A DNA stretch of 64,000 bases from Micromonospora sp. NBC_01740 (lineage in GTDB: Bacteria > Actinomycetota > Actinomycetes > Mycobacteriales > Micromonosporaceae), in assembly GCF_035920365.1 (NCBI RefSeq), contig NZ_CP109150.1:1860001-1924000 (forward strand). The letters run 5' to 3'. The notes under the pieces were generated by a model. It saw only the letters and a list, made by a program, of their open reading frames with translations, was not told the DNA's origin and made no database searches. Of the stretch, positions 21,312 through 50,100 are shown piece by piece. Position 1 is the stretch's first letter; every line of letters starts with the position of its first letter. The position numbers and the translations under genes are program-made.

Positions 21312-22379
21312 ATGTATGGCAACGACTTCTCCGCCGAGGACGCACCCGGCGGTGGCCTGCTCGGCGAGGTCGAGGCGGCGGAGGCGGCCCTGCGGGAGGC
21401 CGCCGCACGTGGCCGCCGGGGCGGCGCCCCCGGCGCGGACGATGACCTCGAGGCGTACTTCGCCGAGGTCATCGACGCCGACCAGAAGATCGAGCCGCGC
21501 GACTGGATGCCCGAGGCGTACCGCAAGACGCTGATCCGGCAGATCGCGCAGCACGCGCACTCCGAGATCATCGGCATGCAGCCGGAGGGCAACTGGATCA
21601 GCCGCGCCCCCTCGCTCAAGCGCAAGGCGATCCTGCTGGCCAAGGTGCAGGACGAGGCCGGCCACGGCCTCTACCTCTACGCCGCCGCCGAGACCCTCGG
21701 GATCAGCCGGGACGAGCTGGTCGAGCTGCTGCTCAACGGCCGGCAGAAGTACAGCTCGATCTTCAACTACCCCACCCTGACCTGGGCCGACGTGGGCGCC
21801 ATCGGCTGGCTGGTGGACGGCGCCGCCATCGTCAACCAGGTCCCGCTCTGCCGCTGCTCCTACGGGCCGTACGCGCGGGCGATGATCCGGGTCTGCAAGG
21901 AGGAGTCGTTCCACCAGCGGCAGGGCTACGAGATCCTGCACACGCTCGCGCACGGCACGCCGGCGCAGAAGGCGATGGCGCAGGACGCCCTCGACCGCTG
22001 GTGGTACCCGTCGCTGGCGATGTTCGGCCCGCCGGACACCGACTCCACCCACTCGGCGCAGTCCATGGCCTGGAAGATCAAGCGCTTCTCCAACGACGAG
22101 CTGCGCCAGCGCTTCGTGGACATGTGCGTGCAGCAGGCGGAGATCCTCGGCCTGACGATCCCGGATCCCGACCTGCGCTGGAACGAGTCCCGGCAGTCGT
22201 ACGACTTCACCCAGCCCGACTACGACGAGCTGATGCGGGTGATCAAGGGCAACGGCCCGTGCAACCGGCAGCGGATGGAGCACCGGCGCCGCGCCCACGA
22301 CGACGGCGCGTGGGTGCGGGAGGCCGCCGCGGCGTACGCCGCCAAGCGGGTGGAGCAGAAGGAGAAGGTAGCGGCGTGA
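21312..22379 (+). CDS. paaA: Phenylacetyl-CoA epoxidase catalytic subunit PaaA
   Basis: About 355 residues from the ATG at 21312 ([10 protein letters not shown]). PaaA carries the di-iron centre that epoxidises phenylacetyl-CoA in aerobic phenylacetate breakdown. Typical blocks are present: [38 protein letters not shown] (a ligand Glu and His in DEAGH) and [14 protein letters not shown] (a second Glu/His pair). The N-terminus has about 30 extra Ala/Gly-rich residues before the fold, as in other actinobacteria. It leads the paaABCDE operon; its stop overlaps the paaB GTG. Confidence 0.95.
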
Positions 22380-22696
22380 GCGAGCGTAGCGAGCGGACGG
22401 ACCAGCGCGGCGTGAGCGGTCCTTCGCCCTTGTGGGAGGTCTTCGTGCGGGCGCGGCGCGGGTTGTCGCACACCCACGTCGGCAGCCTGCACGCCCCCGA
22501 CGCCGAGCTGGCCCTGCGCAACGCGCGGGACCTCTACACCCGCCGCCAGGAGGGCGTCTCCATCTGGGTGGTGCCGGCGGGCGCGATCACCGCGTCCAGC
22601 CCCGACGAGAAGGACGCCTTCTTCGACCCGGCGGCCGACAAGGTCTACCGGCATCCCACCTTCTACGACGTGCCGGACGGGGTGGCCCACCTGTGA
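22376..22696 (+). CDS. paaB: Phenylacetyl-CoA epoxidase subunit PaaB
   Basis: About 106 residues if begun at the GTG overlapping the paaA stop. A second in-frame GTG at 22412 gives [17 protein letters not shown], closer to ordinary PaaB N-termini. The intervening 12 codons ([12 protein letters not shown]) come from a repeat that resembles the other linkers in this operon, so the native start may be 22412. The core [26 protein letters not shown] and later [16 protein letters not shown] are diagnostic of PaaB, a small structural subunit of the epoxidase. Reading continues without a stop across the linker, unlike the other junctions. Confidence 0.92.
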
Positions 22697-22767
22697 GCGA
22701 GCGAACCGTTCGGCCCAGCACCGGGGCGCGTCGCGCCGCCGCCGAGCGGAGCGAGGTGGCGGCGTGA
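22693..22767 (+). repeat. Linker mini-ORF between paaB and paaC
   Basis: The 67-base gap is an open frame of 24 codons, starting at a GTG that overlaps the paaB stop and ending at a TGA that overlaps the paaC GTG. The peptide begins [11 protein letters not shown] and ends AAAERSEVAA. Parts such as GAGCGGAGCGAG recur in the nuoM-nuoN linker and resemble the paaA-paaB linker. It probably passes ribosomes from paaB to paaC; a function for the peptide is doubtful. Confidence 0.6.
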
Positions 22768-23489
22768 ACGGCCCCTTCGACTTCGCCCTCGCCCTCGGCG
22801 ACGACGCGCTCGTCGCGGCGCAGCGGCTGGCCGAGTGGACCACCCGCGCGCCGGAGATGGAGGAGGACATCGCGCTGGCCAACATCGCCCTCGACCAGCT
22901 CGGCGCGGCCCGGCTCCTGCTGTCGTACGCGGGCGAGGTGGAGAGCGCCGGCCGGGACGAGGACGCGCTGGCGTTCCTCCGCGACGACCGGGAGTTCCGC
23001 AACTGCCTGCTCGTGGAGCTGCCCAACGGCGACTTCGCGGTCACCATGGCGAAGCTGCTCTTCCTGGCGGCCTACCAGCTTCCGCTCTACACCGCGCTGG
23101 CCGGCTGCGCCGACGAGCGGCTGGCCGCGATCGGGGCCAAGGCCCGCAAGGAGTCGGCCTACCACCTCGACCACGCCTCGACGTGGGTGCGGCGGCTCGG
23201 CGACGGCACCGAGGAGTCGCACCGGCGCATGCAGGCGGCGGTCGACCAGGTCTGGCCGTACGTGCACGAGCTGTTCGCCCCCGACCCGGCGGCGCCGGTC
23301 GACCCGGCCACCCTGCGGGCCGACTTCGACGCCACCGTCGGCGCCGTGCTGGACGAGGCCACGCTGACCCGGCCGGAGTCCGGCTGGGCGCCGGGCGGCG
23401 GGCGGGACGGCGTGCACACCGAGCACCTGTCCTTCCTGCTCGCCGAGATGCAGGTGCTGCACCGCGCCCACCCCGGAGCGCACTGGTGA
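22764..23489 (+). CDS. paaC: Phenylacetyl-CoA epoxidase subunit PaaC
   Basis: 241 residues from the GTG at 22764. PaaC is the ferritin-like structural partner of PaaA. Family blocks include RLAEWTTRAPEMEEDIALANIALDQLGAARLLL, RDDREFRNCLLVELPNGDFA and KESAYHLDHASTWVRRLGDGTEESHRRMQ. Length is typical. It is joined to both neighbours by short repeat-derived open frames rather than by direct overlap, which is unusual for this operon type. Confidence 0.94.
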   Translation: MNGPFDFALALGDDALVAAQRLAEWTTRAPEMEEDIALANIALDQLGAARLLLSYAGEVESAGRDEDALAFLRDDREFRNCLLVELPNGDFAVTMAKLLFLAAYQLPLYTALAGCADERLAAIGAKARKESAYHLDHASTWVRRLGDGTEESHRRMQAAVDQVWPYVHELFAPDPAAPVDPATLRADFDATVGAVLDEATLTRPESGWAPGGGRDGVHTEHLSFLLAEMQVLHRAHPGAHW

Positions 23490-23548
23490 GCGTGAGGAGT
23501 GCAGCGCAGCGGAGCCCCGCAGTCGCGAACGGAAGGCGGCACTGGTGA
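23486..23548 (+). repeat. Linker mini-ORF between paaC and paaD (dispersed repeat)
   Basis: A 20-codon open frame starts on the paaC stop (GTGA) and stops on the paaD start (GTGA). It contains AGCCCCGCAGTCGCGAACG, the core also found in the nuoC-nuoD and nuoM-nuoN linkers (peptide core SPAVAN). The bases GCACTGGTGA occur at both ends, as if the target had been duplicated on insertion. Confidence 0.7.
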
Positions 23549-24018
23549 CTCCGCGGGAGGCTGTGGCGGCGGTGGTGGATCCGGAGATCCGGGTGGTCAC
23601 CATCGACGACCTCGGCATCCTGCGGGCGGTCGACGAGGACCCGGCGACCGGCCGGGTGGTCGTGACCATCACCCCCACCTACACCGGCTGCCCGGCGATG
23701 GACGTGATCCGCGCCGACATCCGGCGGGCGCTGGCCGCCGCCGGGCGTCCCGAGGCCGACGTGCGGACCGTCTACAGCCCGGCGTGGAGCACCGACTGGA
23801 TCTCCGACGCCGGCCGGGCCAAGCTCGCCGCCGCCGGCATCGCCCCGCCGTCGCCCGTACGCGCCGACAACGTGGTGCCGCTGACCCTCGCCGTCCGCTG
23901 CCCGCGCTGCGGCTCGCCCGAGACCGAGCAGGTCAGCCGCTTCGGCTCGACCGCGTGCAAGGCGCTCTGGCGCTGCCGTTCCTGCCGTGAACCCTTCGAC
24001 CACCTGAAGGCGCTGTGA
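23545..24018 (+). CDS. paaD: Phenylacetyl-CoA epoxidase accessory protein PaaD
   Basis: 157 residues from the GTG at 23545. The N-terminal MIP18/DUF59 domain (AAVVDPEIRVVTIDDLGILRAV; TPTYTGCPAMDVI) is followed by a C-terminal zinc ribbon with CPRCG and CRSC pairs. PaaD is thought to help assemble iron-sulfur or di-iron centres of the epoxidase. Its stop overlaps the paaE start (GTGA). Confidence 0.93.
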   Translation: MTPREAVAAVVDPEIRVVTIDDLGILRAVDEDPATGRVVVTITPTYTGCPAMDVIRADIRRALAAAGRPEADVRTVYSPAWSTDWISDAGRAKLAAAGIAPPSPVRADNVVPLTLAVRCPRCGSPETEQVSRFGSTACKALWRCRSCREPFDHLKAL

Positions 24019-25124
24019 CTGTCACCATCACCCGCCCGGTCCGTCGCCGGCCGGTCTTCCACCCGCTGTCCGTCGCCGCCGTCGACCGGCTCACCGACGA
24101 CGCCGTGGCGGTCACCTTCGCCGTGCCGGCGGAGCTGCGCGAGACGTTCGCGTTCTCCGCCGGCCAGCACCTCACCGTCCGCCGCCCCGGCGCCGCCGGT
24201 GAGGACGTGCGGCGGTCGTACTCCATCTGCTCCACGCCCGACGACCTGGCCCGGCACGGCCGGTTGCGGATCGGCGTGCGGGAGATTCCCGGCGGCGCGT
24301 TCTCCGCCTTCGCCTGCGGCGCGCTGCGCGGCGGCGACACGATCGAGGTGCTGCCGCCGCTCGGGCACTTCACCACGGCCCTCGCGCCGGACCGGGCCCG
24401 CCACTACGGCGCGGTGGTCGCCGGCTCGGGCATCACCCCGGTGCTCGCGCTGGTCGCGACGGCGCTCGCCGTCGAGCCGGCCAGCACGTTCACGCTGGTG
24501 TACGGCAACCGCACGGCGAACACGGTGATGTTCGCCGAGGAGTTGGCCGACCTGAAGGACCGGTGGCCCACCCGGCTGCACCTGGTGCACGTGCTCTCCC
24601 GGGAACAGGGCGAGTCGGCGCTGCTCTCCGGCCGGATCGACGCCGACCGGCTGGGCCGGCTGCTGGACACCGTCGTGCCCGGTGACACCGTCGACGAGTG
24701 GTTCCTCTGTGGCCCGTACGACATGGTGGTGGACGCCCGGGAGGTGCTCGCCGCGCGCGGCGTGCCGGAGTCGGCGGTGCACACGGAGCTGTTCCACGTC
24801 GCCGAGGCCCCGGCACCACCGCGACGCCCGGCCGACGAGCCGGGGGGCGGCGCCGAGGTGACCATCCTGCTCGACGGCCGGTCGTCGCGTTTCACGATGC
24901 GGCGCGACGAGCGGGTGCTGGACGCGGCGCTGAAGGTGCGCGGCGAGCTGCCCTACGCCTGCAAGGGCGGGGTCTGCTCCACCTGCAAGGCCAAGGTGGT
25001 CGACGGCGCGGTCACGATGGCCCGCAACTACGCGCTGGAGCCGGACGAGGTGGCCGCCGGCTACGTCCTCACCTGCCAGTCCAGCCCGACGACCGACCGG
25101 CTCACCGTCGACTACGACGCCTGA
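24015..25124 (+). CDS. paaE: Phenylacetyl-CoA epoxidase reductase PaaE
   Basis: 369 residues from an overlapping GTG. An FAD-binding domain (RRSYSICS flavin motif) is followed by an NAD(P)H-binding domain (VVAGSGITPVLALVATAL) and a C-terminal plant-type 2Fe-2S ferredoxin domain with Cys ligands in CKGGVCSTCK (about residues 316-324) and LTCQS. It passes electrons from NADPH to the PaaA di-iron site. It is the last gene of the operon, and a hairpin follows 6 bases after the stop. The ring-opening and beta-oxidation genes and paaK are not in this window. Confidence 0.94.
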   Translation: MTVTITRPVRRRPVFHPLSVAAVDRLTDDAVAVTFAVPAELRETFAFSAGQHLTVRRPGAAGEDVRRSYSICSTPDDLARHGRLRIGVREIPGGAFSAFACGALRGGDTIEVLPPLGHFTTALAPDRARHYGAVVAGSGITPVLALVATALAVEPASTFTLVYGNRTANTVMFAEELADLKDRWPTRLHLVHVLSREQGESALLSGRIDADRLGRLLDTVVPGDTVDEWFLCGPYDMVVDAREVLAARGVPESAVHTELFHVAEAPAPPRRPADEPGGGAEVTILLDGRSSRFTMRRDERVLDAALKVRGELPYACKGGVCSTCKAKVVDGAVTMARNYALEPDEVAAGYVLTCQSSPTTDRLTVDYDA

Positions 25125-25130
25125 CCGGTC

Positions 25131-25150
25131 CGCCCGCCGCTCGGCGGGCG
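25131..25150 (+). terminator. Hairpin after paaE
   Basis: CGCCCGCCG and CGGCGGGCG form a perfect nine-base stem around a two-base loop, right after the paaE stop and before the convergent amidase gene. It is a probable terminator without a U-tract. Confidence 0.5.
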
Positions 25151-25210
25151 CAGCCGGGTCGGCGGGTCGGCGCAGGCACCGCGTCGCACCCGCCGACCCC
25201 CTGCGTGCGG

Positions 25211-25975
25211 TCAGCTCGGGGCCTTGACCTGGCCGTCGTAGGCGATGCTGCGCCACAGGTCGAACTGGCGGTCGTTGCCGACCAGCGGGTTGCCGGCCAG
25301 CGCGACGGCGGCGTGCACCTCCTCGTCGTTGCGGAGCTGGCGGAAGTAGCCGGGTCCGACGAGGGCGATGCCGCGGCCGGGTGACTGGATGAGCTTCATG
25401 TCGTTCTCCGTGAGGTCGAGGGGTGGGTTGCCGGCGAGCTGGCGGGCCACGTCGGCGCGCATCGAGTCCAGGTCGATGAACGACGGGTCGATCTTGCCGC
25501 TGGTGCTGGTCTCCCGGTGGCCCCGGGCGTGGCTGGCGTCGCGGCCGAGCCGCCGCAGCACGGCGGCGGTGGCGAGCACCGAGGCGCTGTACTGGGCGCC
25601 GGTCATGGCCTGGTTGACCCCGTTGTAGTCGATCTCCCAGCCGACCATCAGGGTGTTGCCGTCGCCGGCCGGGATGGGGCCGCTGCCGCGGCTGACGCCG
25701 GCGTGGTTGGCCCGCCCGCCGGAGATGACGTGGAAGACGCCGTGGTGGTCGACCAGGGCCTGGCAGAGCGGGCCGGGCAGGTCGGAGCGGCCGTTGATGC
25801 AGATGTTCAGGGCGGGGTGCGGGTTGCCGGCGCTGGAGGTGGCGGCGGTGTGGTGCCAGAGCACGCCGATCGGATTGAACGAGCTGCCGGAGACCCGGCC
25901 GAGCCAGTTGCCGTGCTCCACCACCGTGACGCCGGCGGCGCGGAGCACGTCGGCGAGCCAGGGGATGGTCGCCAT
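25211..25975 (-). CDS. N-acetylmuramoyl-L-alanine amidase-type protein
   Basis: About 254 residues from the ATG at 25975 (MATIPWLADVLRAAG). Blocks such as GVLWHHTAATSS, LCQALVDHHGVFHVISGGRANHAG, TLMVGWEIDYNG and ARGHRETS match the amidase_2/PGRP zinc amidases; likely zinc ligands are the first His pair and the His in RGHRE. The C-terminal 60 residues (NDMKLIQSPGRGIALVGPGYFRQL) form a separate small domain. There is no signal peptide in this reading, so it could be phage-like or exported by another route. In-frame starts up to 26146 exist but add a low-complexity N-terminus. The start lies in an 11-base tandem repeat. Confidence 0.82.
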   Translation of the reverse strand: MATIPWLADVLRAAGVTVVEHGNWLGRVSGSSFNPIGVLWHHTAATSSAGNPHPALNICINGRSDLPGPLCQALVDHHGVFHVISGGRANHAGVSRGSGPIPAGDGNTLMVGWEIDYNGVNQAMTGAQYSASVLATAAVLRRLGRDASHARGHRETSTSGKIDPSFIDLDSMRADVARQLAGNPPLDLTENDMKLIQSPGRGIALVGPGYFRQLRNDEEVHAAVALAGNPLVGNDRQFDLWRSIAYDGQVKAPS

Positions 25976-26140
25976 CAGGTTGCCATCAGGTCGGCGAGGC
26001 GACGTAGGGGAGGACGGGTGGGGGAAGACGTCTTCACGATCATTCACGAATGTTAATGGTTCGATGGGTGCGTCGGGAGGGACTGATCGCGGCGGTCGAG
26101 CGGGGCGGTGCGGCGACCGCCCAACATCTATATTCCAGTC

Positions 26141-26158
26141 CGTCACCGACAGGTGACG
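26141..26158. promoter_or_regulatory. Small dyad in the amidase / trypsin-like intergenic region
   Basis: CGTCACC and GGTGACG form a perfect 7-base inverted repeat with a 4-base spacer, about 95 bases before the trypsin-like gene. An AT-rich CATCTATATTCC, which could serve as a -10 element, lies about 10 bases to its left. It may be an operator in the divergent 277-base gap; the binding protein is unknown. Confidence 0.35.
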
Positions 26159-26252
26159 CGGCCGACCGTGCGCCCCGGGCAGACCGGCGGGTCGAGCCGG
26201 CCGGTGCCGGAGCGCGGGTGGCCGGCCGCCGTGCCCGAGGAACGGAGAGTCG

Positions 26253-28100
26253 ATGGATCAGCAGGTACGACGACGGCGAAGAGCCCTCGTCATCGGTGTC
26301 GCCGCCGCGTTGACGGCAGGGGCCGTCGCAGGTGCGCCGGCCCGGGCGGTAAGCGGGGGCAGCCCGGTCACGGACAGCGCGTACGCCTTCGCGGCGAAGG
26401 TCACCTTCGGTGAGGTGGGCGCCTGCTCCGGGGCGCTGGTCGCGCCCCAGTGGGTGTTGACGGCCCATTCATGCCTTCCCCCCACCCCGGGCCCGCGCTC
26501 GACTGCGAGCGCGCCCGCGTGGCCCACCACGGTCACCGTGGGCCGGCTGGATCTGACCACGAACGACGGCCGGGTGCAGCGTGCCAATCTCGTGGTGTCG
26601 CACCCGGATCGGAACCTCGCGCTGCTCCGGCTCACGCTGCCGGTGGTCGGCGTCACCCCGGTCGCGCTCGCCACCGGGGCACCCGTGCCGGGCGAGACGT
26701 TGCAGGCGCTCGGCTTCGGTCGTACCGCCACCGAGTGGGTGCCCGACAAGCTGCACGGTGCGCCGGTCACGGTCGGCGCCGTCTCGGCCACCTCGGTCGC
26801 GATCAGCAACGGGCAGGGTGGGCCGACCACCTGCAAGGGCGACGCCGGAGGGCCGGCGGTGCGGGTGGTGGACGGGCGTCCCGAACTGGTTGCCGTGCAT
26901 GCCACCTCCTGGCAGGGCGGCTGTCTCGCCGAGACGGAGACCCGGCGGGACGCCATCGAGACCCGCACGGACGACCTGGCCGGCTGGATCCGCCAGAACA
27001 CGCCCAACAACTGCAGTGCCGGTGGCGCGAGTCACGGCCCGGCCGACCAGGCGGGTGTGGTGATCCTGGGCGACTGGACCGGCGACTGCCGCACCGACGC
27101 GCTTGTCCAGCTCGCCGACGGCAGGCTGCGGGCGTACCCGTCGAGCGGCGACCTCTCGGGCACCGCCCCGCTCTTCCCGTCGCCCTACCGCTACGTGGGG
27201 ACGAACTGGGGCGGGGCGAACCGGCCGCGGGCGCTCACCGGGGACTTCACCGGGGACGGCCGGACGGACATCATCGCGCAGAGCGGCGACGGCACCCTGA
27301 CCGCCTGGGAGTCGACCGGCGACCTCTCCGCCGACTACCGGCTCTTCGCCGGGGCGTCCGCGATCGTCGGCACCGCCTTCACCAGCGGCTCGATCCCCCG
27401 CCTGATCCCGGGCGACTTCAACGGCGACGGCCGCACCGACCTCCTCGGCCAGCTGCTCAACGGCACGCTACGGGTCTGGACGTCCACGGGCGACCTGTCG
27501 GCCGACGCCCAGCTGTTCGCCGGGACGACGAGGGACGTCGGCACGGGTTTCACCACCACGGAGGTGCCGCGCATCCTGACCGGCGACTTCAACGGCGACG
27601 GGCGGACCGATCTGATCGCCCAGCACGCCGACGGCACCATGAAGGGCTACCCGTCCAGCGGGAATCTTTCCATGGACATGAGGCTCTTCCCGACGACTCT
27701 CGTGGCGAAGGTGGTCGGCACCGGTTGGCGGAGTTCCTCGATTCCTCGGATCCTGCCGGCCGACTTCGACGGTGACGGCACCACCGACCTGGTCGCCCAG
27801 CTCGCGGACGGACGGCTGCGGGCGTACCGGTCGTCGGGGGCGATGACCGGCGAGGGGCTGCTGTTCTCCGGGCCCTACCCGTACGTGGGCACGAACTGGG
27901 GCACGACGAACCGGCCCCGCATCCTGGTGGGGGACCTCACCGGCGACGGACGCACCGACCTGATCGGCCAGGACTCCGCCGGCGTCATGCTCGGCTTCCA
28001 GTCGACCGGAGACCTGAGCGCCGACTTCAAGCTCTACGCCACCAGCACCAGTGCCGTGGGCAGCGGCTGGACGCCCAGCAGCATCCCGCGCGTCTTCTGA
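26253..28100 (+). CDS. Secreted trypsin-like pseudoprotease with FG-GAP repeats
   Basis: 615 residues. The ATG at 26253 follows GGAACGGAGAG. A signal peptide (RALVIGVAAALTAGAVAGAPARA) leads into a chymotrypsin-fold domain (about 33-255). H72 is present in LTAHSC. The usual Asp position reads Asn (N121 in DRNLALLRL) and the nucleophile motif GDSGGP reads GDAGGP (A198), so proteolysis is not expected. Residues 270-615 hold about seven FG-GAP/VCBS-type repeats with calcium-loop sequences such as GDFNGDGRTDLL and ADFDGDGTTDLV, probably a beta-propeller. A binding or scaffolding role outside the cell is most likely. The next gene is mqnC, after a hairpin. Confidence 0.87.
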   Translation: MDQQVRRRRRALVIGVAAALTAGAVAGAPARAVSGGSPVTDSAYAFAAKVTFGEVGACSGALVAPQWVLTAHSCLPPTPGPRSTASAPAWPTTVTVGRLDLTTNDGRVQRANLVVSHPDRNLALLRLTLPVVGVTPVALATGAPVPGETLQALGFGRTATEWVPDKLHGAPVTVGAVSATSVAISNGQGGPTTCKGDAGGPAVRVVDGRPELVAVHATSWQGGCLAETETRRDAIETRTDDLAGWIRQNTPNNCSAGGASHGPADQAGVVILGDWTGDCRTDALVQLADGRLRAYPSSGDLSGTAPLFPSPYRYVGTNWGGANRPRALTGDFTGDGRTDIIAQSGDGTLTAWESTGDLSADYRLFAGASAIVGTAFTSGSIPRLIPGDFNGDGRTDLLGQLLNGTLRVWTSTGDLSADAQLFAGTTRDVGTGFTTTEVPRILTGDFNGDGRTDLIAQHADGTMKGYPSSGNLSMDMRLFPTTLVAKVVGTGWRSSSIPRILPADFDGDGTTDLVAQLADGRLRAYRSSGAMTGEGLLFSGPYPYVGTNWGTTNRPRILVGDLTGDGRTDLIGQDSAGVMLGFQSTGDLSADFKLYATSTSAVGSGWTPSSIPRVF

Positions 28101-28106
28101 CCGGAG

Positions 28107-28146: not shown

Positions 28147-28244
28147 ACCGGCGAGGGTGAACACCGTCACACCCGACGCGCCGCCGGGCGGGCTGTTCGG
28201 CGGCCATCGACCGGTCCCCTGAGCGGGCGACGTAGGCTCGGGGG

Positions 28245-36255: not shown

Positions 36256-36989
36256 CCGCGCCTCAGGACAGGCAAGACGACGGCGGCGTGCCGGTGCCGG
36301 TCACGCCGGCCGGTGCCAGCAGCACCGCACCCGCCGAGTACCCCCCGGCCAGCCCGGCCGGCCGGGGCATGTTCGGCAACCAGGGCTCCGGCGACGTGTC
36401 CGGCTTCGGCGGCCTCGTCCGCCAGCGCCGGACCATCGAGGATGCGCCCCGGCCGTACGGGGGCTACTTCGACGAGGTCCGCGACGCGCTGGAGGAGGCG
36501 TACCCGGACTTCGCCGACGCCGTCGAGAAGGTCGTGGTCGACCGGGGCGAGCTGACCCTGCACATCCGCCCCGAGCGGATCGCCGAGGTCTGCCAGGTGA
36601 TGCGCGACGACATGGCGCTCCGCTTCGAGCTCTGCTCCTCGGTCTCCGGGGTCGACTACCTCGGCGCCGACGCCCGCCGCCTGCACGTCGTCTACCAGCT
36701 CACCTCGATGACCTACCGCCGCACGGTGCGGCTGGAGGCCGCGGTCTCCGCCGAGGACCCGCACCTGCCGAGCGTCACGTCGATCTACCCGACGGCGGAC
36801 TGGCAGGAGCGCGAGGCGTACGACATGTTCGGCATCGTCTTCGACGGTCACCCCAACCTGACCCGGATCCTCATGCCGGACGACTGGGAGGGGCACCCGC
36901 AGCGCAAGGACTACCCGCTCGGCGGCGTACCCGTCGAGTACAAGGGCGCTGAGATCCCGCCGCCGGACCGGAGGAGGTCCTACCAGTGA
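36252..36989 (+). CDS. nuoC: NADH-quinone oxidoreductase subunit C
   Basis: 245 residues from the overlapping GTG. The first 70 residues are a Pro/Ala/Gly-rich extension. The 30-kDa subunit fold follows ([22 protein letters not shown]), with the family signature in the C-terminal half ([47 protein letters not shown]). It is a peripheral-arm subunit without cofactor. NuoC and NuoD are separate proteins here, not fused. A 19-codon linker frame separates it from nuoD. Confidence 0.95.
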
Positions 36990-37045
36990 GCGCGAGGAGT
37001 GAGCTTGCGAGCCCCGCAGTCGTGAACGGAGGGCCGGCACTGTGA
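36986..37045 (+). repeat. Linker mini-ORF between nuoC and nuoD (dispersed repeat)
   Basis: A 19-codon frame ([15 protein letters not shown]...) begins at the GTG overlapping the nuoC stop and ends at the TGA overlapping the nuoD GTG. Its core AGCCCCGCAGTCGTGAACG differs by one base from the cores in the paaC-paaD and nuoM-nuoN linkers. Its GGAGGG at about 37028 may serve as the nuoD ribosome-binding site. Confidence 0.7.
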
Positions 37046-40833: not shown

Positions 40834-40834
<1 letters not shown>

Positions 40835-43350
40835 TGACCGACGTAGCGAAGCAGACCGAGACCGTCACGCTCACCATCGACGGCGTCGAGGTCACCGCCC
40901 CGAAGGGGGCGCTGCTGATCCGGGTCGCCGAGCAGTTGGGCACCGAGATCCCCCGGTTCTGCGACCACCCGCTGCTGGCCCCGGCCGGCGCGTGCCGGCA
41001 GTGCCTGGTCGAGGTGGAGGGGCAGCGCAAGCCCGTCGCCTCCTGCACCCAGACCGTCGCCGACGGCATGGTGGTACGCACCCAGCTCACCTCTCCGGTC
41101 GCCAAGAAGGCGCAGGAGGGGGTCATGGAGCTGCTGCTGCTGAACCACCCGCTCGACTGCCCGATGTGCGACAAGGGCGGCGAGTGCCCGCTGCAGAACC
41201 AGGCGATGTCCACCGGACGCTCCGACTCGCGGTTCCACGAGCACAAGCGGGAGTACCCGAAGCCGCTGCCGATCAGCACGCAGGTGCTGCTCGACCGCGA
41301 GCGCTGCGTGCTCTGCCAGCGCTGCACCCGGTTCTCCGAGGAGATCGCCGGCGACAAGTTCATCGACCTGATGGGCCGGTCGTCCGCCGAAGAGATCAAC
41401 ATCTACCGGGACGAGGACTACGGCGTGGAGACGGGCGCGGGCTGCCCCGGCGCCGACGCCGGGGCCGACTCCGGCGACGTTCCCTTCAACTCGTACTTCT
41501 CCGGGAACACGGTGCAGATCTGCCCGGTCGGCGCGCTGACCGGCACCCAGTACCGGTTCCGGGCCCGGCCGTTCGACCTGGTCTCCTCCCCGAGCGTCTG
41601 CGAGCACTGCTCGGCCGGGTGCGCCCAGCGCACCGACTGGCGGCGGGGCAAGGTGCTGCGCCGGCTGGCCGGCGACGACCCGGCGGTGAACGAGGAGTGG
41701 AACTGCGACAAGGGGCGGTGGGGCTTCCAGTACACCCGTGCCTTCGACCGGCTCACCACCCCGCTGGTCCGCGACCCGCAGACCGGCGAGCTGCGTGAGG
41801 CGGCGTGGAGCGAGGCGCTGGCCGTCGCCGCCGAGGGGCTGCGCGCGGCGCGGGACGGCGGACGGGGCACGGCGGTGCTCACCGGCGGTCGGCTGACCGT
41901 CGAGGACGCCTACGCGTACGCGAAGTTCGCCCGGGTCGCGCTGAACACCAACGACGTCGACTTCCGGGCCCGGCCGGTCTCCCGCGAGGAGACGGACTTC
42001 CTGGCCAGCTCGGTCGCCGGGGTCACCGACGTCACGTACGCCGACGTCGAGAAGGCGCCGGCCGTGGTGCTGGTCGGGCTGGAGCCGGAGGAGGAGTGCC
42101 CGATCCTCTTCCTGCGGCTGCGCAAGGCGTACCTGAAGAAGAAGCTGACGGTCTACGCGATCGCGCCGTTCGCCACCCGCGGCCTGGAGAAGCTCGGGGC
42201 CAAGCTGGCCCGGGTGGTGCCAGGCGAGGAGGCGACCGTGCTCGCCGAGCACGCGACGGTCGCCGAGGCGCTCAGCGCCGAGGGCGCGATCCTGATCGTC
42301 GGCGAGCGGCTGGCCAGCGTGCCGGGCGGCCTCTCCGCGGCGGCCGACGTGGCCCGGCGTACCGGCGCGAAGCTGGCCTGGGTGCCGCGGCGCGCGGGTG
42401 ACCGCGGCGCGGTCGACGCGGGCTGCCTGCCCAACCTGCTTCCCGGCGGCCGCCTGGTCAACGAGCCGGCCGCCCGGGCCGAGCTGGGTGAGGCGTGGGA
42501 CATCCCCGCCGGGGTGATCCCGAGCCAGGCCGGCCGGGACACCGACGCGATCCTCGCCGCCGCCGCCGGCGGTCAGCTCGGCGCGCTGGTGGTGGCCGGG
42601 GTCGACCCGGCCGACCTGGCCGACCCGCGGCTGGCCGAGAAGGCCCTGGACGAGGTGCCGTTCCTGGTCAGCCTGGAGCTACGGATGAGCGCGGTGGCCC
42701 GGCGGGCCGACGTGGTCTTCCCCGTCGCCCCGGTGGTCGAGAAGGCCGGCAGCTTCCTGGACTGGGAGGGCCGGCTGCGCACCTTCGAGGCGGTTCTGCG
42801 CACCGCCGCGATGACCGACGGCCGCGTGCTGGACGCGCTCGCCGCGCAGCTCGACGTGCAGCTCGGCACCGGTGACGTGCTCAGCGTCCGCCGCGAGCTG
42901 GGCGCGCTGCCGCGGACCCGGACCGACCGTCCCGCCACCCCGTCGGTGGAGCCGGCCGCGGTGCGGGAGCCGGGCGCCGGTGAGGCGGTGCTCGCCACCT
43001 GGCACCAGCTGATCGACCTGGGCAGCCTCACCGACGGCGACGAGCACCTCGCCGGCACCGCCCGCCCGCCGGTGGTCCGGCTGGGCAAGGGCACCGCGGA
43101 GGCGCTCGGCGTCGCCGACGGCGACCCGGTGACGGTGGGCACCGACCGGGGGGCGCTGACCCTGCCGGCGGCGATCACCGAGATGCCGGACGGCGTCGTC
43201 TGGCTGCCGACCAACTCGCCCGGCTCGACCGTGCGACGCAGCCTCGGCGCGACGTCCGGAGCGCTCGTGCGGATCTCCGCCGCCGCGGTCGCCGCCGACG
43301 CGGCGGACCGCCCGGGCCCGCTCCTCAACGCAGGAGGTGTACAGCAGTGA
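40834..43350 (+). CDS. nuoG: NADH-quinone oxidoreductase subunit G
   Basis: 838 residues. The N-terminus has a ferredoxin-like 2Fe-2S domain ([20 protein letters not shown]), then Cys/His sites of further 4Fe-4S clusters ([39 protein letters not shown]). The rest is a molybdopterin-oxidoreductase-like domain without an active molybdenum centre, as in the NuoG family, opening with [23 protein letters not shown]. It wires electrons from NuoF/NuoE to NuoI/NuoB. It overlaps nuoH by GTGA. Confidence 0.96.
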
Positions 43351-44702
43351 ACGCGGTCTACCTGGCCCAGGATCCGACGCTGGCCGACTTCGGCCGGGAT
43401 CCCTGGTGGCTGGTCCTCGGCAAGATCGTCTTCGCGTTCGTCGTCGCCGTGCTGGCCACGCTGCTCGGCGTCTGGTTCGAGCGCCGGGTCGTGGGCCGCA
43501 TGGCCGTGCGACCCGGCCCCAACCAGGCCGGCCCGTTCGGTCTGCTGCAGACCCTCGCCGACGGCCTGAAGCTCGCCTTCAAGGAGGACCTCCTCCCGCG
43601 GACCGCCGACAAGGTCGTCTTCTTCTTCGCCCCGGTGATCTCGGTGGTCTGCGCGATCACCGCGCTGTCGGTGATCCCGTTCGGGCCGATGGTCAGCATC
43701 TTCGGGCACCGGACGCCGCTACAGGTCACCGACGTGCCGGTGGCGGTGCTGGTGGTGCTGGCACTCTCCTCGCTGGCCGTCTACGGCATCGTGCTCGGCG
43801 GCTGGGCCAGCGGCTCCACGTACCCGCTGCTCGGCGGCCTGCGCTCCGCCGCCCAGCTGGTCTCGTACGAGGTCACGATGGGCCTGAGCGTCGTCGCGGT
43901 CTTCATGACCGCCGGCACCATGTCGACCAGCGGGATCGTCGCCGCCCAGGGCGACGGCACCCGGCTGAGCATCGGGGGCTTCGAGATCCCGGCCCCCGGC
44001 TGGTACGCGCTCCTGCTGCTCCCCAGCTTCATCATGTTCTTCATCGCCATCGTCGGTGAGACGAACCGGGCGCCGTTCGACCTGCCCGAGGCGGAGTCGG
44101 AGCTGGTGGCGGGCTTCCAGACGGAGTACAGCTCCCTGAAGTTCGCGCTCTTCATGCTCAGCGAGTACGTCGCGATGGTGACCATGTCGGCCTTCACCGT
44201 GACGCTCTTCCTCGGCGGCTGGCACGCGCCGTGGCCGATCACCAGCATCTGGGCGGGCGCCAACTCCGGCTGGTGGCCGATGCTGTGGTTCTTCGGCAAG
44301 GTCGTCATGCTGGTGTTCGTCTTCGTCTGGCTGCGGGGCACCCTGCCCCGGCTGCGCTACGACCAGTTCATGCGCTTCGGCTGGAAGGTCCTGCTCCCGA
44401 TCAACCTGGTCTGGATCCTGGTCCTGGCCGGCCTGCGCTCGATCGAGGACTGGGACTCGCGCAGCAAGCTGATCGCCGTCGGCATCCCCGCCGGCATCCT
44501 GCTGCTCGCCACGCTGCTCTGGCCGAGCCGGAAGCAGCAGCCGAAGCCGACGGTCCAGGAGCAGGTCAACGACCGGCCGCACGGCAGCTTCCCGCTGCCC
44601 CCGATGGACCTGCAGGTACCACCGAGCCCGCGCACGAGGCGCGTGGTCGCCGAGCGGGAACCGGCCAACATCGCCGCCGGCCCGGACTCCAGGGAGGTGT
44701 GA
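43347..44702 (+). CDS. nuoH: NADH-quinone oxidoreductase subunit H
   Basis: 451 residues with about eight to nine transmembrane helices. Conserved blocks are [32 protein letters not shown] near the start and [27 protein letters not shown] in the middle, which forms part of the quinone entry and the first proton path. The soluble C-terminal tail of about 65 residues ([20 protein letters not shown] onwards) is longer than in E. coli. The nuoI GTG follows one base after the stop. Confidence 0.96.
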
Positions 44703-44703
44703 C

Positions 44704-45345
44704 GTGGGCGCGATCACCGGAACGTTCAAGGGATTCGGTGTCACCTTCTCGCACATGTTCAAGAAGGTCATCACCACCGACTACCCGTTCAAGCCGCCGG
44801 TGTCGGCGCCGCGCTACCACGGGCGGCACATCCTCAACCGGCACCCGGACGGGCTGGAGAAGTGCATCGGCTGCGAGCTGTGCGCCTGGGCCTGCCCGGC
44901 GGACGCGATCTACGTCGAGGGCGGCGACAACACCGACGAGCAGCGCTTCTCGCCGGGTGAGCGGTACGCCAGCATCTACCAGATCAACTACGCCCGCTGC
45001 ATCTTCTGCGGGCTCTGCATCGAGGCCTGCCCGACCCGCTCGCTCACCATGAGCAACGAGTACGAGCTGGCCCGGGACAACCGGCAGGATCTGATCTTCA
45101 CGAAGGAGCAGCTGCTCGCGCCGCTGCTGCCGGGCATGGAGCAGCCGCCGCACCCGATGCGACTCGGCGACAGCGAGAAGGACTACTACGTCGGCGCGCT
45201 GACCAACCCGGGCACCTCGGCCGGCGCGGAGCACTCGGCCAACAACCCGGGCCGGTACCAGGTGGAGGAGCACCCCGGTGTGACCTTCCCGGGCGCCGAG
45301 CAGCACGCCCAGCGGGCGGCAGCCGCCAAGGGAGACGGAGCATGA
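44704..45345 (+). CDS. nuoI: NADH-quinone oxidoreductase subunit I
   Basis: 213 residues from the GTG at 44704, preceded by GGGAGGTGTGAC. Two 4Fe-4S motifs, [12 protein letters not shown] and [12 protein letters not shown], bind clusters N6a and N6b that link NuoG to NuoB. The C-terminal 70 residues are hydrophilic ([20 protein letters not shown] onwards), as in actinobacterial homologues. The stop overlaps nuoJ (ATGA). Confidence 0.96.
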
Positions 45346-46112
45346 CCACGCAGACGGTGCTCGCCGCGGCGGGCGAGGTCTCCAGCGGGGAGCAGGTGAC
45401 CTTCTACATCCTGGCTCCGCTGGCGCTGATCGGCGCGATCGGTATGGTCGCGGCGCGCAACGCCGTGCACTCGGCCCTCTGGCTGGTGCTGACGATGCTC
45501 TGCCTGGGCGTCTTCTACGTCCTGCAGGCCGGGCCGTTCATCGGCATGGTGCAGATCATCGTCTACACCGGCGCGATCATGATGCTCTTCCTGTTCGTGC
45601 TGATGCTGGTGGGTCGCGACGCCTCGGACTCGTTGATCGAGACGCTGCGCGGCCAACGGGTCGCGGCGGTGGTGCTCGGGCTCGGCTTCGCCGGCCTGGC
45701 CGGCGGCGGGCTGTGGCGCGCGCTGGAGGGCACCACGGCGGTCGGCCTGGAGCAGGCCAACGCCGAGGGCAACGTGCAGGGCATCGCCCGGCTGCTCTTC
45801 ACCAAGTACGTCTTCGCGTTCGAGCTCACCTCGGCGCTGCTCATCACGGCCGCCATCGGCGCGATGGTCCTGGCCCACATCGAGCGGCGCAAGGAGGACA
45901 GGCTGGACCAGCCGAAGACGATGCGGGCGCGCTTCGCCCCGGGCAACTACCCGGGCCCGAAGCCCGGCCCGGGCGTCTACGCGACCTCCTCCTCCGTGGC
46001 CACCCCGGCCCGTCTGCCGGACGGCCGGCTGACCGAGCGGAGCACCCCGGAGATCCTGCCGGTGCGCGAGCTGGACGCCCGGGAGACGACCCTGAAGGGG
46101 ACGGAAAAGTGA
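45342..46112 (+). CDS. nuoJ: NADH-quinone oxidoreductase subunit J
   Basis: 256 residues with five hydrophobic helices in the first 180 ([54 protein letters not shown], containing the conserved YTGAIMVL-like pi-bulge helix). A polar tail follows ([17 protein letters not shown] onwards). It is an antiporter-linked membrane-arm subunit. GTGA overlap with nuoK. Confidence 0.95.
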
Positions 46113-46408
46113 CGCCGGACTACTACCTGGTGCTGGCCGCGGTGCTCTTCACCATCGGCGCGGTCGGTGTGCTCATCCGGCGCAACGCGATCGTGCTCTT
46201 CATGTGCATCGAGCTGATGCTCAACGCGGCCAACCTGACGCTGGTCACCTTCAGCCGGATCAACGGTGACCTCAACGGCCAGATCATGGCGTTCTTCGTG
46301 ATGGTGGTGGCGGCGGCCGAGGTCGTGGTCGGGCTCGCGATCATCATGGCGATCTTCCGGACCCGACGCTCCGCGAGTGTCGACGACGCCAACCTGCTGA
46401 AGTACTGA
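46109..46408 (+). CDS. nuoK: NADH-quinone oxidoreductase subunit K
   Basis: 99 residues from the overlapping GTG. There are three transmembrane helices with the conserved Glu residues in [11 protein letters not shown] and [12 protein letters not shown], which belong to the proton path. The length is exactly typical. nuoL begins 11 bases after the stop. Confidence 0.95.
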
Positions 46409-46419
46409 GGGGTCCTGCG

Positions 46420-48378
46420 GTGGGAACGATTCTGACGAACGCCCCGGCTGAGCCGGTGGGCACCGTCGCCTACGCGACGGCGGACGGGCTGCTGGGCAGC
46501 GTCTGGCTGCTGGTGGCGATTCCGCTGCTCAGCGCGGCGGTCCTGCTGCTGCTCGGCCGGCGGGCGGACCGCTGGGGGCACTGGCTCGGGGTGGCCGCCA
46601 TCGGCGCCGCGTTCGTGCTGGGCCTGACCTACTTCCTCCAGTTGCGTGGCCTGGAGAACAAGTCGGTCGAGCTGAGCCTGTGGGACTTCATCACGGTCGG
46701 CGACCTGCGGGTGGACTTCGGTCTGCTCTTCGACCCGCTGGCCGCCGTCTTCGTGCTGCTGATCACCGGGGTGGGCTTCCTGATCCACCTCTACGCGGTC
46801 GAGTACATGTCGCACGACGCGGGGCGTAGGCGGTTCTTCGCCTACTTCAACCTGTTCGTCGCCGCCATGCTGCTGCTGGTGCTCGGCAACAACTACGTGA
46901 TGCTCTACTTCGGCTGGGAGGGCGTCGGTCTGGCGTCGTACCTGCTGATCTCCTTCTGGTACGAGCGGCCCAGCGCCGCCACCGCCGGCAAGAAGGCGTT
47001 CCTGATGAACCGGGTCGGCGACGCCGGCCTGGCGATCGGCATCTTCATCATGTTCGCCAGCCTCGGCACCACCCAGTACGACGAGGTCTTCAACGGGGTC
47101 GGCTCGCTGACCGCGACCACGGTGCTGGTGCTCGGCCTGCTGCTGCTGCTCGGCGCGACCGGCAAGTCCGGCCAGTTCCCGCTCCAGGCGTGGCTGCCGG
47201 ACGCGATGGAGGGCCCGACCCCCGTGTCGGCGCTCATCCACGCCGCGACCATGGTCACCGCCGGCGTCTACCTGATCGCCCGGTCCAACCCGATCTTCTC
47301 GGCCAACTCCACCCTCCAGCTGGTGGTGGTGAGCGTCGGCGCACTGACGCTGCTGATCGGCTGCATCATCGGCGCGGCCAAGGACGACATCAAGCGCGTG
47401 CTGGCCTGGTCGACCGTGAGCCAGATCGGCTACATGTTCCTCGGCGTCGGCCTCGGCGGTGGCGCCTACGCGCTGGCGATCGTGCACCTGCTGGCGCACG
47501 GCTTCTTCAAGGCCAACATGTTCCTCGGCGCCGGCTCGGTCATGCACGGTATGAACGACCAGGTCGACATCCGCCGGTTCGGTGGGCTGTCGAAGTACAT
47601 GAAGGTCACCTGGATCACCTTCATGACGGGCTGGCTCGCGATCATCGGCATCCCGCCGCTGTCCGGCTTCTTCTCCAAGGAGCCGATCATCGTGGCGGCG
47701 TTCGAGCGGGAGGACTGGACCGCCTGGCTCTTCGGTGGCGCGGCCCTGCTCGGTGCCGGGCTCACCGCGTTCTACATGACCCGGCTCTTCGTGCTCACCT
47801 TCCACGGGCCGAAGCGCTGGACCGAGGACATCGGGCAGCCGCACGAGTCGCCGAAGCTGATGACCATCCCGCTGATCCTGCTGGCGGTCGGCTCGGTGGG
47901 GGCGGGCTGGCTGCTCTCCACCTCGGTGCCGGACTGGCTCACCGCCACGGCCGGACTCGGTGCGGCAGAGGGGGAGCACCACCCGGTGCTCTCGCACACC
48001 GTGATCACGATCCTGTCGATCCTGGTCACCGTGCTCGGTGCCGGGCTGGCCTGGTTCCTGTTCCGGAGCGGCACGGCCACCGCGCCGCAGCCGGCCGGGG
48101 TGCTGGTCACCGCCGCCCGCCGCAACCTCTACACGGACGCGGTCAACGAGGCGATCTTCGAGAAGCCGGGCATCTTCCTCACCCGGGCACTGGTCTACCT
48201 CGACAACCGGGGCGTCGACGGGCTGGTCAACGGCCTCGCGGCGGGGATCGGTGGCGGCTCGGGTCGACTCCGGCGGCTCCAGACGGGCTTCGTCCGGTCG
48301 TACGCCACCTCGATCCTGACCGGCGCGCTGCTGGTCCTGGCGGCGTTCCTGGCCGTCGAGGCGGGGTGGCTGGCGTGA
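46420..48378 (+). CDS. nuoL: NADH-quinone oxidoreductase subunit L
   Basis: 652 residues from the GTG at 46420. It is the distal antiporter-like proton pump with about sixteen helices, including LLFDPLAAVFVLLITGVGFLIHLYAVEYM, the conserved GWEGVGLASYLLI and GATGKSGQFPLQAWLPDAMEGPTPVSALIHAATMV. The C-terminus carries the long lateral helix region and a last anchor (YATSILTGALLVLAAFLAV). It is followed by a 22-codon linker frame to nuoM. Confidence 0.96.
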   Translation: MGTILTNAPAEPVGTVAYATADGLLGSVWLLVAIPLLSAAVLLLLGRRADRWGHWLGVAAIGAAFVLGLTYFLQLRGLENKSVELSLWDFITVGDLRVDFGLLFDPLAAVFVLLITGVGFLIHLYAVEYMSHDAGRRRFFAYFNLFVAAMLLLVLGNNYVMLYFGWEGVGLASYLLISFWYERPSAATAGKKAFLMNRVGDAGLAIGIFIMFASLGTTQYDEVFNGVGSLTATTVLVLGLLLLLGATGKSGQFPLQAWLPDAMEGPTPVSALIHAATMVTAGVYLIARSNPIFSANSTLQLVVVSVGALTLLIGCIIGAAKDDIKRVLAWSTVSQIGYMFLGVGLGGGAYALAIVHLLAHGFFKANMFLGAGSVMHGMNDQVDIRRFGGLSKYMKVTWITFMTGWLAIIGIPPLSGFFSKEPIIVAAFEREDWTAWLFGGAALLGAGLTAFYMTRLFVLTFHGPKRWTEDIGQPHESPKLMTIPLILLAVGSVGAGWLLSTSVPDWLTATAGLGAAEGEHHPVLSHTVITILSILVTVLGAGLAWFLFRSGTATAPQPAGVLVTAARRNLYTDAVNEAIFEKPGIFLTRALVYLDNRGVDGLVNGLAAGIGGGSGRLRRLQTGFVRSYATSILTGALLVLAAFLAVEAGWLA

Positions 48379-48443
48379 TCGACCTCTTCCAGGCGGCCGT
48401 CTCCGGCGGACCGCGCAGTGACGACGGAGGTAAGGCCGCATAA
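48375..48443 (+). CDS. 22-codon linker frame between nuoL and nuoM
   Basis: The frame begins at the GTG overlapping the nuoL stop (GTGA) and ends at a TAA sharing its last base with the nuoM ATG (TAATG). The peptide starts VIDLFQAAVSGG and ends GGKAA. It contains GGAGGT about ten bases before the nuoM ATG. It is not a copy of the dispersed repeat, but it gives the same coupling geometry. It may act only by handing ribosomes on. Confidence 0.45.
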   Translation: MIDLFQAAVSGGPRSDDGGKAA

Positions 48444-49978
48444 TGTCCGACTTCCCGTTCCTCTCGGTGCTCACCGTGGCACCGCTGGTCGGCGCCCTGG
48501 TGGTGGCCTTCCTGCCGCGCAGCCGGCCGGAGTTGGCCAAGCAGGTGGCGCTCGGCTGGTCGCTGCTGGTGCTGGTGCTGTCGGTGGTCATGTGGGTGAC
48601 CTTCGAGGTTGGTGGCGACCGCTTCCAGTTCCGTGAGTCCTACACCTGGATTCCGAACTGGGGCGTCAGCTTCACCTTCGCCGCCGACGGCATCGCGCTG
48701 GTGATGCTGATGCTGATCGCGGTGCTCGTACCGCTGGTGATCCTGGCGTCCTGGCACGACGCCGAGTCGTCCAAGCGGTCGGTGCCGGTCTACTTCGCCC
48801 TGCTGCTCGTCCTCGAGTGCACGATGATCGGCGTCTTCGCCGCCGCCGACGTGTTCCTGTTCTACGTGTTCTTCGAGGTCATGCTGGTGCCGATGTACTT
48901 CCTCATCGGCAGCTACGGCGGCCACCAGCGGCAGTACGCGGCCGTTAAGTTCTTCCTCTACTCGCTGGTCGGCGGTCTGTTCATGCTCGCCGCGGTGATC
49001 GGCCTCTGGGTCGTCGGCGGGAAGACCTTCGACTGGCAGGCGCTGTCCCAGGTGGACATCTCCACCGGCACGGAGCGTTGGCTGTTCCTCGGTTTCTTCC
49101 TGGCGTTCGCGATCAAGGCGCCGTTCTTCCCGTTCCACACCTGGCTGCCGGACGCCGGTGGCGCGGCCCCGGCGGGTGCGGCGGCGCTGCTCGTCGGCGT
49201 GCTCGACAAGGTCGGCACGTTCGGCATCCTGCGCTACTGCCTGCCGCTGTTCCCGGACGCGGCCAAGTGGTTCGCCCCGTGGGCGCTGGCGCTGGGCGTG
49301 ATCGGCATCATCTACGCCGCGCTGCTGGCGGTCGGCCAGAACGACCTGAAGCGGCTGGTGTCGTACACCTCGATCGCGCACTTCGGCTTCATCGGGGTGG
49401 GCATCTTCGCCTTCACCACGCAGGCCGGCACCGGCGCGGTGCTCTACATGGTCAACCACGGGCTCGCCACCGGCCTGCTCTTCCTGGTGGTGGGCATGCT
49501 CATCGCCCGGCGGGGCTCGGCGCTGATCAGCGACTTCGGCGGCGCAGGCAAGCTGGTGCCGATCCTGGCCGGAGTGCTCTTCTTCGCCGGTCTGGCCTCG
49601 CTCGCGCTGCCCGGCACCGCGCCGTTCGTCTCCGAGTTCCTGGTGCTGATCGGCACGTTCACGGTGAACAAGCCGGTCGCGGTGATCGCGACGCTCGGCA
49701 TCATCCTGGCCGCCGCGTACGTGCTGTGGATGGTGCAGCGCACCACCCAGGGCACGCTCAACCCGGCGCTCACCCAGATCGACGGCATGAAGCGTGACCT
49801 GAACCTGCGCGAGAAGTTCGTGGTCGCGCCGCTGATCGCGCTGATCGTGCTGCTCGGCTTCTACCCGAAGCCGGTCACCGATGTGATCAACCCGGCCGTG
49901 CAGGCGACCATGCAGGACGTCGGCCGGACCGACCCCGCCCCGACGTCGGGCGGAACCGTCCAGGAGGCGGCAAAGTGA
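48443..49978 (+). CDS. nuoM: NADH-quinone oxidoreductase subunit M
   Basis: 511 residues. It is the second antiporter-like proton pump, with about fourteen helices. Signature stretches are YVFFEVMLVPMYFLIGSYGG, AIKAPFFPFHTWLPDAGGAAPAGAAALLVGVLDKVGTFG (conserved Lys and His of the proton channel) and NDLKRLVSYTSIAHFGFIGVGIF. The ATG shares a base with the linker-frame stop. A double repeat linker separates it from nuoN. Confidence 0.96.
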   Translation: MSDFPFLSVLTVAPLVGALVVAFLPRSRPELAKQVALGWSLLVLVLSVVMWVTFEVGGDRFQFRESYTWIPNWGVSFTFAADGIALVMLMLIAVLVPLVILASWHDAESSKRSVPVYFALLLVLECTMIGVFAAADVFLFYVFFEVMLVPMYFLIGSYGGHQRQYAAVKFFLYSLVGGLFMLAAVIGLWVVGGKTFDWQALSQVDISTGTERWLFLGFFLAFAIKAPFFPFHTWLPDAGGAAPAGAAALLVGVLDKVGTFGILRYCLPLFPDAAKWFAPWALALGVIGIIYAALLAVGQNDLKRLVSYTSIAHFGFIGVGIFAFTTQAGTGAVLYMVNHGLATGLLFLVVGMLIARRGSALISDFGGAGKLVPILAGVLFFAGLASLALPGTAPFVSEFLVLIGTFTVNKPVAVIATLGIILAAAYVLWMVQRTTQGTLNPALTQIDGMKRDLNLREKFVVAPLIALIVLLGFYPKPVTDVINPAVQATMQDVGRTDPAPTSGGTVQEAAK

Positions 49979-50100
49979 GCGCGAGGAGCGAGCTTGCGAG
50001 CCCCGCAGTCGCGAACGAAAGGTTTGCAGCGGTGAGCGCGAGGAGTGAACGAGCGGAGCGAGTGAGCCCCGCAGTCGCGAACGAAAGGTTTGCGCAGTGA
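49975..50100 (+). repeat. Double linker repeat / 41-codon frame between nuoM and nuoN
   Basis: Two tandem copies of the linker repeat fill the gap. Both carry the core AGCCCCGCAGTCGCGAACG followed by AAAGGTTTGC. They form one uninterrupted 41-codon frame, from the GTG on the nuoM stop to the TGA on the nuoN GTG. The peptide has two SPAVANERFA units, and a GTGA also marks the internal boundary. AAAGG lies shortly before nuoN and could serve as its ribosome-binding site. Confidence 0.75.

Follow-up and report, generated by a model that had tools for sequence, protein, structure and literature searches.

The window analysed here is a 64,000-nucleotide stretch of Micromonospora sp. NBC_01740 (positions 1860001–1924000 of a 7.32 Mb single contig). 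It contains the paa and nuo operons, in which a short repeat, referred to below as the core element, lies between consecutive genes. Based on Pfam, the genes concerned encode PaaA_PaaC, PaaB, PaaA_PaaC and PaaD zinc ribbon proteins in the paa operon, and Complex1_30kDa, Complex1_49kDa and twice Proton_antipo_M proteins in the nuo operon. Direct reading of the sequence confirmed what a first-pass annotation of the window had described, namely that the gaps at paaB-paaC, paaC-paaD, nuoC-nuoD and nuoM-nuoN each form one open frame, a mini open reading frame (mini-ORF) that overlaps the upstream stop with its GTG and the downstream GTG with its TGA. The GTG-to-GTG distances (71, 59, 56 and 122 bases, respectively, the last being 57 + 65) all leave remainder 2 on division by 3, as had also been stated.

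Three of these junctions, paaC-paaD, nuoC-nuoD and nuoM-nuoN, share one repeat with a 19-base core. Its copies at 23513, 49999 and 50065 are exact and the one at 37010 has a single mismatch, in agreement with the claim of at most one change; the nuoM-nuoN linker consists of two units fused in frame. The linker at paaB-paaC (PaaB end at 22696, PaaC start at 22764) contains no core and carries a different, hairpin-bearing element, so that the single element first envisaged gave way to two families. The first-pass annotation gave 22376 as its start, which falls on the paaA-paaB junction; an additional insert there is joined in frame to PaaB, the N-terminus of which is probably repeat-derived. With up to 3 mismatches allowed, the window yields 4 core matches against 0.13 expected, and 0 of 100 shuffles reach 4. 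Chance or a GC-rich artefact as the source of the core matches was ruled out by these shuffles, by the expected counts and by reversed-pattern controls. The features, in window positions, are as follows.

22376..22411, + strand: paaA-paaB junction, resembles the left part of the second element; in-frame fusion to the PaaB N-terminus
22693..22767, + strand: paaB-paaC mini-ORF, second element with a GC-rich hairpin, core-free
23486..23548, + strand: paaC-paaD mini-ORF, one core-element unit (VSVRSAAQRSPAVANGRRHW*); GTG overlaps the paaC stop, TGA overlaps the paaD GTG at 23545
23513..23531, + strand: 19-base core, exact
23531..23536, + strand: Shine-Dalgarno-like GGAAGG ahead of the paaD start
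36986..37045, + strand: nuoC-nuoD mini-ORF, one core-element unit; empty sites in relatives
37010..37028, + strand: 19-base core, one change
37028..37033, + strand: Shine-Dalgarno-like GGAGGG ahead of the nuoD start
49975..50031, + strand: nuoM-nuoN unit 1, core element; in-frame fusion to unit 2, spacing 57
50032..50100, + strand: nuoM-nuoN unit 2, longer middle variant; TGA overlaps the nuoN GTG at 50097
50083..50088, + strand: Shine-Dalgarno-like GAAAGG ahead of the nuoN start

Distribution, anatomy and frame of the core element

The search of the whole genome for the core, which had been proposed as a check, yielded 33 exact copies of the 19-mer (reversed pattern, 0) and 81 matches with up to 3 mismatches (reversed pattern, 9). 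Units were recognised by their 5' end, which had to resemble [GA]TGAGCGYGAGGA with no more than 2 mismatches. This gave 58 units in 33 arrays in the own genome. An exact 16-mer of the core is present in 60 of 61 Micromonospora genomes, at 0 to 43 copies per genome (median 19), and its reversed control gave one match in total across all 61. Among the 81 genomes of a family sample, the core was found in 25, four of them Micromonospora, and in 15 of 44 genera. The exact 19-mer occurred in 2 of the 396 genomes of a phylum sample, the own genome and one Micromonospora, and in 0 of the 394 genomes that represent other families there. Judged from where its copies lie, the core element is a short interspersed repeat family of Micromonosporaceae.

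Two further sites in the own genome, at 64050 and 4866195, have the same junction, the same element and near-identical printed flanks, and therefore a larger segment may have been duplicated. At 2559117–2559245, three tandem core copies with an altered 5' end (CTCGTGCGAGGAG), which the unit rule missed, possibly represent an intergenic branch of the core family.

A unit is laid out as GTGAGCGCGAGGA, a middle of variable length, CCCGCAGTCGCGAACG, [GA]RAGG and a variable tail running to NTGA. Units are mostly 56–66 bases long and usually stand 1–4 in tandem, with up to 6 seen. The offset from GTG to core is 27 bases in 52, 30 in 70, 32 in 113, 36 in 5 and 21 in one of 241 units, and the spacing of units is near-constant within a subtype (56–57 bases for the 27-offset, 59–60 for most of the 30- and 32-offset units). 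Of these units, 128 have the core in one reading frame and 113 in another, and the resulting peptides are unrelated. Remainder 2 prevails in both frames: counted as (site, frame) cases, it was found in 40 and 37, remainder 0 in 7 and 1, and remainder 1 in 1. Substitutions by codon position numbered 6, 7, 3 and 6, 8, 11 in two groups of paaC-paaD elements, and the body of the element is flat genome-wide. Since the core is read in two frames and third positions show no excess, it is conserved as nucleic acid, not as peptide. A structured RNA was ruled out for the core element, as five representative core-type units have no stable fold (z −1.1 to 0.7) and the curated Rfam families gave 0 matches at gathering score in window positions 22300–50200.

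Ahead of the downstream start, the tail of the element resembles a Shine-Dalgarno sequence. A match of at least 4 bases to AAGGAGGT, 4–16 bases before the start, is present at 91% of 80 junctions, compared with 17% of random 13-mers, and the purine motif lies 7–10 bases from the start in 108 of 144 arrays.

The position of the arrays is tied to coding frames on both sides. In the own genome, 27 of 33 arrays begin where an open upstream frame ends (manual count). In nine other Micromonospora genomes, 94 of 110 arrays begin exactly at the stop of the upstream coding frame, and the spacing to the downstream frame gives remainder 2 in 92, 0 in 15 and 1 in 3; for the 104 arrays with a clear downstream frame the counts are 89/14/1 (remainder 2/0/1), and for spacings within arrays 29/13/3. 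Named paa loci (80 kept of 566 from a PaaC scan, mostly Micromonospora, at up to 90% identity) contain 24 arrays at two junctions; all 24 start where the upstream gene stops. Of these, 12 terminate on the downstream start codon, 11 form in-frame fusions and 1 is of another kind. Of 29 arrays from other genera, 21 start at the stop of the upstream gene, and remainder 2 is found in 19 of 20 clear cases.

When 165 arrays were clustered by their flanking proteins into 89 distinct junctions and the first array of each was counted, 75 started exactly at the upstream stop, with remainder 2 at 74 junctions, 0 (in-frame fusion) at 8, 1 at one and unclear at 6. A random array per junction instead gave 73 at the upstream stop and remainders 2/0/1/unclear of 74/9/1/5. 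Uniform remainders are rejected over the 83 clear junctions (p about 3e-26). Both the preference for GTGA junctions and the non-random remainders expected by the first-pass annotation are found among these copies. Its supposition that an insert is kept only with remainder 2 stands as a strong frame constraint and fails in its exclusiveness: in-frame fusions with remainder 0 are kept too, and it is remainder 1 that is rare.

One junction, ahead of a gene that presumably encodes a biotin carboxylase, judging by how it starts, carries the element in five genomes (L290, L310, L339, L374 and L066). In four of these, the stop codon of the upstream gene (TAG, TAA or TGA) precedes the GTGA by a few bases, which suggests that the start codon, and not the stop, is targeted.

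Empty sites, element ends and a second family

That a small repeat lies at GTGA stop/start overlaps was borne out by the empty sites of relatives. The paaC and paaD genes overlap directly in many Micromonospora and have the element between them in others; of 78 loci placed on a tree, 18 carry the element there, and parsimony, which does not distinguish gain from loss, requires at least 13 occupancy changes. At paaB-paaC, 8 of the same loci scored positive for the core element, implying at least 7 changes, and 13 for the hairpin element, implying at least 9. Micromonospora phytophila, the nearest row to the window (91% identity), is empty at both paaC-paaD and paaB-paaC. Among 10 other loci of the genus that show the nuoC-nuoD junction, 8 are empty and 2 filled, and two of the empty loci have NuoD proteins 95% identical. 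Gaps without the repeat, which would have spoken against the proposed model, are few, as relatives are mostly gap-free and a few loci carry other, element-free in-frame linkers at paaB-paaC.

Three Salinispora loci (L177, L187, L196) have a core-free, in-frame N-terminal extension of PaaC, which is 78–99 bases long and runs from the paaB stop. In Dactylosporangium sucinum, a 75-base in-frame insert with GGAGCGAAGCGGAGGGGCC at paaB-paaC is perhaps a third element type in another genus.

The first-pass annotation had further proposed that insertion duplicates the GTGA, and here the two families differ. In the core family, the first base of the left NTGA is G in 126 of 128 arrays, and in all 32 arrays in which the right base is A. 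Unoccupied overlaps were counted in a non-random 311 kb sample of the own genome, composed of the window and fetched stretches, in which 3619 NTGA lie outside arrays on both strands and 35 are unoccupied stop/start overlaps, 16 ATGA (46%) and 19 GTGA. As the left base is G even where the right one is A, and ATGA is common in unoccupied sites, the left GTGA of the core family most likely belongs to the element and is no copied target. Literal duplication of GTGA in this family was ruled out by these left and right base counts, although start codons are themselves subject to mutation. Upstream of the NTGA, the left flank and the right tail agree above shuffled pairs at −1, −2 and −4 (z 6.2, 2.9 and 3.5; 67 junctions), suggesting a short duplication just 5' of the start. 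In the hairpin family, left and right first bases, whether A or G, are equal at 8 of the 9 junctions of a small, selected sample (five junctions with full geometry and one weaker from the own genome, three from genome G505). This fits a literal duplication of NTGA, so that the proposed duplication may hold for this family.

The hairpin element has a consensus of about GTGAGCGAGCGNAGCGAGCGAACC ... GCCGAGCGNAGCGAGGTGGCGGC(A/G)TGA. The hairpin of the paaB-paaC copy has a z of −1.9, and 7 of 200 shuffles are equally good. The own genome has 15 matches to the pattern (reversed control, 6), which comprise 5 full-geometry junctions, 1 ending on ATGA with a weak downstream call, 1 fusion to PaaB and 8 without such a junction. 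An element is present in 25 paaB-paaC linkers from the window and the named paa loci. In 20 of these, a single mini-ORF terminates precisely at the start of PaaC, 16 being hairpin-type or its shortened relics and 4 core-type or relic; the other 5 are 2 in-frame fusions and 3 multi-step linkers, one of which was traced in part only. The 16 hairpin-type linkers are 35, 41, 47, 59, 68, 71, 80, 128 or 161 bases long. All nine lengths leave remainder 2, and thus the length of the linker changes in threes. On the sequences compared, there are at least two element families with the same junction geometry.

Relation to known elements, proposed mechanism and alternatives

The concept of the mycobacterial interspersed repetitive unit (MIRU) reportedly goes back to Supply et al. 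in 1997, and the insertion site of MIRUs is worded as DTGA. The core element resembles MIRUs in being short, interspersed and often tandem (units mostly 56–66 bases), in its internal ORF overlapping the flanking stop and start (75/89 upstream; remainder 2 at 74/89), and in its insertion at start codons, with empty orthologous sites that show a direct NTGA overlap. According to the part of PMC12548453 consulted, MIRUs of mycobacteria appear mobile, insert at start codons and have an internal ORF coupled at −4 nt. The model of the first-pass annotation, which knew of no named element with this behaviour, therefore has a precedent. The excerpts used of two other sources give MIRUs as 40–100 bp long and present in 41 places in Mycobacterium tuberculosis H37Rv (PMC2734929), and describe the senX3-regX3 MIRUs as confined to M. 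leprae and the M. tuberculosis complex (PMC4213456). The hosts differ, MIRUs being mycobacterial, whereas the core element belongs to Micromonosporaceae, and for this reason it is filed as MIRU-like. We read it as a member of a MIRU-like class outside mycobacteria and not as a MIRU, a likeness of description rather than of compared sequences; the apparently element-borne left GTGA, the two core frames, the common in-frame fusions and the Shine-Dalgarno-like tail may set the core element apart.

Rickettsia palindromic elements, in the portion of PMC10969869 seen, lie inside genes, encode a conserved peptide, are open in frame and can fuse to host proteins. The core element is likewise a short in-frame-open repeat able to fuse to host proteins, but it lies at gene junctions, five of its units have no stable fold, and its peptide shows no constraint. 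As a non-autonomous short repeat with many copies, it also resembles repetitive extragenic palindromic (REP) sequences with their REP-associated tyrosine transposases (RAYT); unlike these, it shows no stable fold in five units and its copy number has no link to the presence of a Y1 transposase. The same likeness extends to miniature inverted-repeat transposable elements, as far as they are covered in that portion of PMC10969869; the ends of the core element are, however, direct (GTGA...GTGA) by inspection, no inverted repeats being noticed and no inverted-repeat search run. Searches of the open-licence literature directed at such repeats in Streptomyces, Micromonospora or Actinobacteria brought up nothing relevant, which is not proof of absence.

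It is highly probable that these elements form a Micromonosporaceae repeat family that works in a MIRU-like way at NTGA starts, its mini-ORF bridging coupled genes. The element would sit just 5' of an NTGA start, mostly one overlapping the stop of the preceding gene, and its own 5' GTGA would close the upstream gene and open the mini-ORF. On completing the gene before, a ribosome could reinitiate on the mini-ORF, which ends on the downstream NTGA (remainder 2), and could restart there again, aided by the Shine-Dalgarno-like tail; alternatively, with remainder 0, it would read straight into the downstream gene in frame. Because either the −4 overlap or an open frame is kept at the junction, the insert would cost little. 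We infer from this geometry translation of the mini-ORFs, selection for coupling, and an element of mobile and largely selfish nature.

A number of observations weigh against this reading. The recognition rule partly builds in the left GTGA (agreement with the upstream frame is not built in), and relics without a recognised 5' end were left uncounted. Nearly half of the paa arrays (11/24) are in-frame fusions, not stop/start overlaps, and 14 of the 89 junctions do not begin at an upstream in-frame stop. Some arrays start a few bases past a TAG, TAA or TGA, a few copies are intergenic, and one site (L067, L311) has an ATGG start and remainder 1. In other genera, 4 of 20 tandem spacings leave remainder 1. 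Genome G505, from another genus, shows full hairpin-element geometry in 3 of 8 regions; in 2 others no upstream stop was found, and the last 3 have remainders 1, 0 and 1, two of them on weak downstream calls. A Shine-Dalgarno-like match is also present in 60% of cases at the left GTG, and in 52% of shuffled right-end windows because these windows are purine-rich. The parsimony counts, finally, lump gains with losses.

Among the alternatives, an adaptive, portable ribosome-binding linker that tunes the ratio of two operon proteins is unlikely. It would account for the Shine-Dalgarno-like tail (91% of the 80 sites) and for the repeated occupation of the same junctions, and the length of loci with a variable number of tandem MIRU repeats in M. 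tuberculosis is reported, in the excerpt used of PMC2734929, to track the expression of a neighbouring gene. Occupancy is nevertheless very patchy in close relatives (at least 13 changes over 78 loci), and decay and fusion are tolerated.

A remainder of 2 could also be the by-product of precise insertion of a fixed length, with no selection on frame, and the near-constant unit length within subtypes agrees with this. The subtypes, however, differ by 2, 3 or 5 bases before the core and arrive at the same final remainder, the nine hairpin-type lengths at paaB-paaC all leave remainder 2, and remainder 0 is found where remainder 1 hardly is; the by-product explanation is accordingly quite improbable.

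The Y1 (RAYT/IS200) family of transposases inserts adjoining a fixed tetranucleotide, with a similar tetranucleotide at the opposite end. A REP-like repeat moved by such an enzyme would share this typical arrangement, and is very improbable here, as Y1_Tnp is present in 18 of 61 Micromonospora genomes with no difference in copy number (medians 19 and 19, p 0.78), and the five core-type units lack a stable fold. The Y1 transposase was rejected as the mover on these copy numbers. An autonomous copy, with the 5' end and the core far apart and a gene between them, was not seen by eye in the two own-genome match lists that were looked through. That the mini-ORFs encode selected small functional peptides (SPAVANE or AERSEV types), the DNA repeat being only their gene, can scarcely be credited, since for all their open frames, the likeness of peptides within subtypes and that of the hairpin-type SERSERT...AERSEV across lengths, the core element is read in two frames as unrelated peptides and has no third-position excess.

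The MIRU-like reading leaves the question of what brings a 56-base element to start codons. In the 311 kb, a second, rougher count gave 615 non-coding NTGA, and overlaps make up about 5% of the supply (35/650, the two counts combined and coding sites barred) versus 84% of occupied junctions; hence either the mover prefers overlaps or intergenic copies are lost by another cause. As a tentative possibility, stop/start overlaps may be the true target rather than mere survivors, with at least two unlike Micromonosporaceae families and the mycobacterial MIRU steered to such coupled junctions by a mover that recognises start-codon context. If so, coupling sites would be a general safe harbour for short mobile DNA.

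In the literature seen here, itself consulted in part, the MIRU idea concerns mycobacteria only, and the same design is now found in another bacterial family, in copies numerous enough to test it by comparing empty sites, remainders, length changes that keep the frame and the two frames of the core. The same junctions with and without a linker in close relatives offer a natural experiment for translational coupling. Such elements would also account for unusual small ORFs and extended N-termini, for example in PaaB here and in the PaaD of some relatives. A metagenome-assembled genome of the family (L205) has short tandem repeats (GCCCACGCCAAGCCG) at the PaaD N-terminus, right past the junction.

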